The position numbers and the translations under genes were made by a program. The notes under the pieces are model-generated. The model did no database searches and was not told the origin of the DNA. It saw only the letters and a list, made by a program, of their open reading frames with translations. A stretch of 23,189 bases of DNA, from positions 1 through 23,189 of the IMG/VR virus record IMGVR_UViG_3300033153_003202. One strand, given 5' to 3'. How positions within the stretch are numbered: position 1 is the stretch's first letter; every line of letters starts with the position of its first letter. This document shows, piece after piece, positions 17,929 through 19,654 of the stretch. The stretch is from a virus.

Positions 17929-18029
17929 GCGGAAAGATTCTGCCTCTTACACCTCGGGCACACCACCACCCACGGTCGGGCCAGCACGAGCGCCAGCCGC
18001 TTGCCGCATTTCACACACCGCGGGTTTAT
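17925..18029 (-). CDS. Com-like zinc-ribbon protein, start codon uncertain
   Basis: Reading ...NPRCVKCGKRLALVL, then VVVCPRCKRQNLSA to the stop at 17925, this frame gives a short two-CxxC zinc ribbon. It closely follows the pattern of Mu Com (RC.(V/H)CGKLLA....I.CPRC...N). Com is an RNA-binding regulator that permits translation of mom. The only in-frame start at the right distance is ATA 18029, overlapping the portal stop codon; a GTG at 18014 would lose the first Cys. A distant ATG at 18200 would give 91 residues overlapping the portal HTH. No mom-like gene is seen here. The ribbon itself is convincing; whether and how it is translated is not settled. Confidence 0.45.
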   Translation of the reverse strand: MNPRCVKCGKRLALVLARPWVVVCPRCKRQNLSA

Positions 18030-19654
18030 ATCAACCCGCCCAGCGGGCGAGGCAACGGCGCCTTGGGTTCGGGAGGGGTCGGCTCGAAGAACGCCTCCAG
18101 CGCCTTGCGTGGTATCCTGGTGTGCGCGCCGATCTTTCCGCCCGGCAATTTCCCATTTCGGATCGCTCGCTGAATCGACGATTTGGGGGCACCTGTCCAT
18201 TCTACTGCCTCCTCGATTGTCATCATTACGGATTCGGGATCGGGCTCCGGCTCCGGCTCCGGCTCCGGCTCCGGCTCCGGCTCCGGCTCGGGCGCTACCG
18301 GCGCCTCTTCTGGCAACCTGAAACCAAACTCGCCGCCCTCGGGTTGAGGCGGTTGCAGTATTTCATCGGTTGGTGTGCGCTGCTCGAGCCCCATTTTTTC
18401 GCGGGCCTTCTCTTCGTCCTTGTCGGTCGGCACAATGATGCCCTGACCCGCCGCTGCAACCAGCCCGTCAATCCATTCTTTCGTATTCTCTTTCTCAACG
18501 TCACCGTGCGCAAGTATCGGCCACAGGTGCCCCGGTACATTGTTGAGTCTGCACCATCTCGGTATCGCACTGAGATTCATCGTTTCGGTGATGATGTCCA
18601 TAATCCCACCAAGCGCGACAATTGCCATCTTGGTTTTGTCGGACGCCAGCGAGCGCGAGCCGTTCTCCATCGCTCCGAGTAATGCGAATTCCCAGAGCAG
18701 CGATATCAAGATATCGACGCGGTCACGCGTCACGCTTCCATTGATGTCGATAGCACGCGATCCGCCGCTGGACATCAATGAAAACTTGTAGCCTGTTGGT
18801 CCCTCGGCATCTATCTCGCACGGAACAACCATACCCTCGAGTTCGTCGCGCTTCACTTTGCGCACGTTGCTCTGCATCAGCTCGCGGATCGCCTTCTCTC
18901 CGGACGTTGGTTTGGGATTCATGATCGCAAGCGGAACCTCTTGCACAGGATATCCCGACAAGTCACGCGCAATACCAACGCCTTCGATCTCTTCCTTGAG
19001 TGTTTGCAGGTAATAGCTGCGGTACGCGTTGCGCAATGCCGAGCGACCCTCCGGACTGCCCGCCGCCGTCTCGTACCGGAGATGCACCATACGCTCCATC
19101 GGTAGGTACGCCCACTTATACCGAGGCGGCGCGAGCTGCTCAGCGCCAAGCAACGTCTCATCATCATCGGCGTAGCACCATCGCTCGATCGTTTCTTGCT
19201 TGCGTATCTCGAGCGATCTCCAACCCCATAGGCCATCGCTGTATTGACTGTTGAGCCGTCGCGACTCGTTGTCACCGCGACGAAGCTTGTACTTGATCCA
19301 CATCAAGCAAAAGCCGTACGGCACCATGCTCAGCATCTCATCGATGACCTGGCGCCATGGGACTTCCATATCGTACATGCAGTCGTCGAGTTTCTCAGCC
19401 CAGTAGTTCGCCTCGGGATTGTCCTTGTCCGCTGGGTTTGCCATCCATGGTGCTTGTCGGATAAGCATGCGCATTCCGCGCAACGCACCGCCGATCAACG
19501 CATGGTTGTCTGACATCTCACGATAGACACGAACGCCCTTTTTGCCCTGCAAGTCAGTGTGGAATTCTTCAGATACAATCCCGGAAAACCGCTTGAAACC
19601 AGTGCCGCCTGACTCGGCGAGCACGGGGATCTTTTGGTTGGTGTCGACAGTCAT
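18026..19654 (-). CDS. Portal protein with C-terminal helix-turn-helix domain
   Basis: 542 residues from ATG 19654, two bases after the MuF stop. Residues 1-about 440 look like a DUF935/gp6-type portal: a DNHALIGGALRGMRMLIRQA segment, MLSMVPYGFCLMWIKYKLR, then WRSLEIRKQETIERW, and later SLLWEFALLGAMENGSRSLA and LAHGDVEKENTKEWIDGL. Portals form the ring at one vertex through which DNA is packaged. After a (Glu-Pro) linker at about 454-471, residues 477-524 form a complete excisionase/MerR-type HTH: MMTIEEAVEWTGAPKSSIQR, then AIRNGKLPGGKIGAHTRIPR, then KALEAFF. This domain is unusual in a portal. The frame is continuous with no stop or frameshift. Two Met codons at 18226 and 18223 could allow separate translation of the HTH, but no clear ribosome-binding site precedes them. 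Confidence 0.85.
   Translation of the reverse strand: MTVDTNQKIPVLAESGGTGFKRFSGIVSEEFHTDLQGKKGVRVYREMSDNHALIGGALRGMRMLIRQAPWMANPADKDNPEANYWAEKLDDCMYDMEVPWRQVIDEMLSMVPYGFCLMWIKYKLRRGDNESRRLNSQYSDGLWGWRSLEIRKQETIERWCYADDDETLLGAEQLAPPRYKWAYLPMERMVHLRYETAAGSPEGRSALRNAYRSYYLQTLKEEIEGVGIARDLSGYPVQEVPLAIMNPKPTSGEKAIRELMQSNVRKVKRDELEGMVVPCEIDAEGPTGYKFSLMSSGGSRAIDINGSVTRDRVDILISLLWEFALLGAMENGSRSLASDKTKMAIVALGGIMDIITETMNLSAIPRWCRLNNVPGHLWPILAHGDVEKENTKEWIDGLVAAAGQGIIVPTDKDEEKAREKMGLEQRTPTDEILQPPQPEGGEFGFRLPEEAPVAPEPEPEPEPEPEPEPEPDPESVMMTIEEAVEWTGAPKSSIQRAIRNGKLPGGKIGAHTRIPRKALEAFFEPTPPEPKAPLPRPLGGLI
18245..18286. repeat. Hexanucleotide tandem repeat encoding the portal Glu-Pro linker
   Basis: Seven perfect copies of ctccgg (plus strand), flanked by partial copies, encode alternating Glu-Pro. 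Slippage in 6-base steps would change linker length without breaking the frame. It is too short and regular to be a CRISPR. Confidence 0.9.

Follow-up and report, generated by a model that had tools for sequence, protein, structure and literature searches.

The window analysed here is a 23,189-base IMG/VR virus record, itself a fragment. Its minus strand carries a series of head genes, namely a candidate small terminase (TerS) of the DUF5681 type, the large terminase (TerL), MuF, a portal protein and an XkdF-type protease. The features relevant to the portal are as follows.

18026-19654, minus strand: portal open reading frame (ORF), 542 residues, from ATG at 19654 to TAA at 18026-18028
18386-19654, minus strand: portal core, residues 1-423, with a predicted Mu-type portal fold (Portal_Mu, 1e-16; AF2)
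18227-18385, minus strand: acidic linker, residues 424-476, with a Glu-Pro repeat at its end (tandem repeat, charge, AF2)
18083-18226, minus strand: predicted excisionase-type winged helix-turn-helix (HTH_17), residues 477-524 (Pfam, AF2, Foldseek, pI)
18026-18082, minus strand: proline-rich portal end, residues 525-542, and the stop codon (sequence)
17925-18038, minus strand: zinc-ribbon ORF, read in the -1 frame across the portal end (conserved Cys-rich part only)
17901-17928, minus strand: promoter-like TTGACA-16-TACAAC (10/12 match; fails a stricter scan)
22661-22993, minus strand: small-terminase candidate (DUF5681, 3.8e-8; phrog_2538, terminase small subunit, 7.9e-5)

The initial annotation had proposed that the portal frame continues unbroken through a Glu-Pro linker into an HTH domain. 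This was borne out by the absence of stop codons between the ATG and the TAA, and the coordinates it gave for the extension proved exact. The DNA encoding the Glu-Pro linker is a tandem repeat of GGCTCC (8.5 copies, 18243-18293), and because the unit is 6 bases long, errors in copy number would keep the frame. For this reason, and because separate contigs with quite different linkers show the portal-linker-HTH layout, an assembly or frame artefact was ruled out as the origin of the fusion. The fusion is thus confirmed as real, and is neither a one-off nor an assembly error.

Both parts of the protein were recognised by sequence and by predicted fold. The core matched Portal_Mu (PF06074; 1e-16, 61.6 bits against a cut-off of 23.9), and the AF2 model of the portal body matched solved portals in Foldseek searches (11bp, 9mt4, 9c39 and 6qjt/4zjn; best E 1.3e-30), comprising those of Pakpunavirus, Bas63, Sf14 and P23-45/G20c. 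Residues 477-524 matched HTH_17 (PF12728) with an E-value of 3.6e-10 (40.4 bits against a cut-off of 27), or 3.5e-11 when the tail was searched alone, as the initial annotation had anticipated, and the excisionase/Cox families phrog_66 and phrog_575 matched the same stretch independently of Pfam. AF2 predicted a helix-helix-two strands-helix arrangement for the tail alone (mean pLDDT 76 from 4 sequences); in the full-length model the HTH residues reached pLDDT 93-96 and linker residues 431-470 about 50. Fold neighbours of the tail were Pukovnik Xis, Tn916 Xis, BldC, RacA and MerR-type proteins. Foldseek gave a probability of 1.00 for Xis and BldC with a best E-value of only 0.03, the domain being so short that E-values are weak, and the Xis match was backed by a sequence profile (4j2n, 1.1e-4). 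The domain had been described as excisionase/MerR-type; the excisionase-type assignment stands, whereas MerR proper is only a fold neighbour. The window domain has a pI of 10.4, and the last 45 residues of linker before it carry a net charge of -13. By sequence and predicted fold the tail is an excisionase-type winged HTH, and from fold and family we infer that it is a putative DNA binder.

In core sequence, fold and TerL/MuF neighbourhood, the window portal resembles Mu-type portals (Portal_Mu PF06074, phrog_113), but known Mu-type portals have a short acidic or proline-rich end, and no HTH occurs in the annotated phage portals compared. Likewise, the domain resembles the HTH_17/excisionase family (PF12728; Pukovnik Xis 4j2n, Tn916 Xis) in sequence and predicted fold, but excisionases are small stand-alone proteins, whereas here the HTH forms part of a 542-residue portal. 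Portal_Mu and HTH_17 are each known, and what appears to be new is their fusion, a portal with an added putative DNA-binding head. No earlier report of such a fusion was found in the literature searched, which lay mostly outside subscription journals.

A search for other portals with this extension, as the initial annotation had suggested, yielded seven more distinct ones in two families. Among the matches listed, 6 of 243 distinct complete Mu-type portals carry the tail (the window portal and those of contigs L249, L007, L017, L186 and L255, which are 34-65% identical to it), as do 2 of 33 distinct complete portals of a second, SPP1-like family (L252 and L253 only); these counts come from pattern-based scans and are not an unbiased frequency. 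A further contig, L168, encodes a protein identical to the tailed portal of L007. An HMM built from three tails brought out L186, which was absent from the model (E 1.9e-10). A scan with HTH tails only returned 8 contigs among the matches listed, of which 7 were portal C-termini and 1 was a stand-alone HTH. Scans of viral contigs with the window protein alone or the tail alone gave no matches, and human-gut records H119-H121, considered as further portal tails, proved to be separate HTH ORFs of 136-149 aa. No HTH tail was found on the portals recovered from genome contigs or in named phages, so that there is no cultured model yet. Because no more than about 2-6% of the portals in the pattern-based scans have one, the tail is dispensable for portals in general.

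The two SPP1-like tailed portals are 76% identical to each other. Both match the phrog_145 portal family (about 3e-6), L252 also matches SPP1_portal below the cut-off (8e-4), the annotated phiKX1 portal is 26% identical to them, and a MuF-like ORF, called by eye, lies downstream of the L252 portal. Their cores could not be matched significantly to that of the window, the alignment being limited to the tails. Since their nearest relatives (58-59% identity) end without a tail, the tail was acquired at least twice, on two portal families. In the Mu-type tree, five of the six tailed portals group together (SH-aLRT 83-86) with L017 apart; within this family, the tail may have had a single origin followed by losses.

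All eight tailed portals share one layout of core, acidic linker and basic winged HTH. HTH_17 scores above its curated cut-off in every case, the last 45 linker residues have a net charge of -8 to -16, and the heads have a pI of 10.0-11.5 and a net charge of +3 to +6. At seven positions all eight tails have the same residue (A, I, G, P, G, G, R), the G-P-G part being biased by the search pattern. A methionine opens the domain in 6 of the 8 (L017 and L255 have no internal Met), as it would in a stand-alone HTH gene, which suggests gene fusion. Such a gene might simply have become joined to the portal and been carried without function, and the great variation of portal C-termini in length and content would fit this. 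We nevertheless regard a neutral fusion as very improbable, given that the tail was gained on two portal families, that fold residues are kept despite deep divergence, and that the HTH of L252 and L253 is, judged from a dN/dS of about 0.15, under purifying selection. In this pair the HTH is more conserved than the core (87% against 76% identity). Other pairs in the window clade, in which synonymous sites are saturated, show lower identity in the HTH (46-56%) than in the core (62-70%), with the HTH still above the linker.

The zinc-ribbon ORF that follows the window portal also follows those of L007 (4590-4700), L249 (3027-3272) and L186 (3211-3411) and, in a more diverged form, L017 (4581-4775). 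It starts at the portal stop in L017 (ATG) and L186 (GTG); in the window and L007 no ATG, GTG or TTG lies near, and the closest ATG falls within the stretch that encodes the HTH. A -1 frameshift product joining portal, HTH and zinc ribbon was not supported, as no slippery heptamer is common to the window, L249 and L007; GGGAAAC occurs only in L007. Winged HTH domains are able to act as protein contacts, and the recurrence of this companion beside HTH-tailed Mu-type portals could mean that the portal head, rather than binding DNA, touches the scaffold, MuF or the zinc-ribbon protein during procapsid assembly. This seems improbable to us: immediately behind the L252 and L253 portals we saw no zinc-ribbon ORF, and the strongly basic character of all eight heads, set on acidic tethers, is what DNA binding predicts.

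In the window and in L007, a TTGACA-16-TACAAY site lies 3' of the zinc-ribbon stop and upstream of the protease gene. The initial annotation had pointed to a promoter-like sequence about 300 bases downstream; the site is present, but its distance from the portal stop is about 100 bases. The L007 counterpart (about 4704-4731) matches at 11 of 12 positions, and only 2 of 288 HTH-less portals are followed by such a site. Regulators and excisionases are the usual members of the HTH_17 family, and the opening methionines could allow a free HTH to be made from an internal start; either this product or unassembled portal might then bind a promoter in the structural operon and time capsid gene expression. 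We consider such a regulator unlikely, and the promoter evidence behind repression by the portal, as raised in the initial annotation, is thin. The strict scan did not retain the window site, L249 and L255 have no site after the portal, L186 and L017 have TTGACA there without a well-placed -10, and L017 and L255 lack the internal Met. Moreover, regulation would not need the HTH to be joined to a portal, let alone in two families.

Another possible role is recognition of the packaging site, as by the winged HTH of lambda gpNu1. Among the fold neighbours of the tail is the packaging-motor entry 7lw0, which from its title we take to be the gpNu1 domain (rank 50, E 0.64). If the portal HTH read pac or cos DNA and recruited that DNA or the terminase, it would share the work of the small terminase; the weak matches of the L017 and L186 tails to the phrog_57 small terminase (E about 0.02) and the lack of a Pfam HTH match in the TerS candidates that the window and L017 have, both of DUF5681 type, are consistent with this. 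However, the crown is expected to point into the capsid and away from where the terminase docks, and L007 has the tail despite keeping a Terminase_2-like gene, so that we hold this role to be doubtful at best. Although 7lw0 likewise represents a winged HTH in a DNA-packaging protein, the fold match is weak, gpNu1 is located with the terminase on the outside of the procapsid, and a gpNu1-type small terminase is the product of its own gene before TerL and has a terminase-binding part, unlike the portal-borne HTH of the window.

The gene before TerL is of the DUF5681 type in the window (22661-22993) and in L017 (36-416) and Terminase_2-like in L007 (103-474). The window and L007 are the closer portal pair yet differ in TerS type, and the TerS gene therefore seems to have been swapped. 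An operator search by repeats near TerS and TerL gave nothing convincing. Replacement of a lost small terminase by the HTH tail was rejected because TerS-like genes persist; in the window, a separate TerS-like gene precedes TerL while the excisionase-type HTH sits on the portal.

The likely position of the tail follows from solved portals. The crown of P23-45 is its C-terminal domain (residues 377-436), which moves toward the capsid centre (PMC7234808), and in JBD30 the crown, wing and stem are hidden in the procapsid interior (PMC11445458). By homology to these two portals, the C-terminus of the window portal probably leaves the crown on the inside of the capsid. The initial annotation had suggested that the portal holds a DNA site at the vertex, such as a pac site or the packaged end. 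The packaged end is close to the reading we prefer, whereas the pac-site idea had to be revised because the window retains a small-terminase-like gene and the portal crown is directed inward.

We tentatively favour, at somewhat below an even chance, a role for the portal winged HTH as a grip on a tether, by which packaged DNA, and most likely its leading end, is anchored. The acidic tether would leave the portal crown inside the capsid carrying the excisionase-type head, and up to twelve heads would form a flexible collar gripping packaged DNA. The most likely target would be the leading end, which is threaded first and which, should packaging begin from a pac or cos site, would have a defined sequence. 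Anchoring this end would help to keep the DNA from slipping in the early phase of packaging and would set a first-in-last-out order of ejection. Against this reading speak the small share of portals with the tail and the lower conservation of the HTH than of the core in the other window-clade pairs; moreover, in a crowded capsid, with all DNA close by, the need for a sequence-specific head is not evident. That two families of ring protein bear the tail suggests that it serves these viruses to retain their own DNA within the head.

Leading-end anchoring is proposed here by analogy with phages 812 and T4. The crown and wing of the phage 812 portal touch DNA inside the capsid and have been proposed to anchor the leading end, and T4 is cited for such anchoring in the same source (PMC12886913). 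The phage 812 portal is described as using basic residues of the wing and crown termini in a molten-globule state, and no HTH is mentioned for it (PMC12886913). RacA (5i44, 5i41), a weak match, resembles the proposed portal tail in that a winged HTH head is carried by a protein fastening DNA to a set location, but it is a bacterial cell-pole chromosome anchor and not part of a virion.

More generally, some portals may be sequence-specific receptors for a DNA end, in which a ring of HTH domains in the capsid, acquired separately by two families, holds the first-packaged end until ejection; we regard this as rather unlikely. How the first-packaged end is held and how portals might read DNA sequence are still being worked out (phage 812, and T4 as cited in PMC12886913), and a portal with its own putative DNA-binding head offers a ready experimental handle. 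Portal C-termini appear to accept putative DNA-binding modules, and portals may have roles beyond that of a channel.

Other C-terminal extensions were also observed. The C-terminus of a Mu-type portal in L072 (1887-3458) ends in a zinc-ribbon motif, CPFCGK...CPSCGR (weak in Pfam; DZR, 0.0087), and may represent another type of tail, binding metal or nucleic acid. In L051 (2899-5334), the portal ORF extends about 370 residues beyond the usual end and contains a P-loop-like motif, GGGYGSGKSTLLDN. Mu-type portals of L009 and L023 and SPP1-like portals of L292 and L298 have a similar C-terminal helical mini-domain (LNGAQ...G.L....A...), which, judged from this likeness, is a second tail module common to both portal families.
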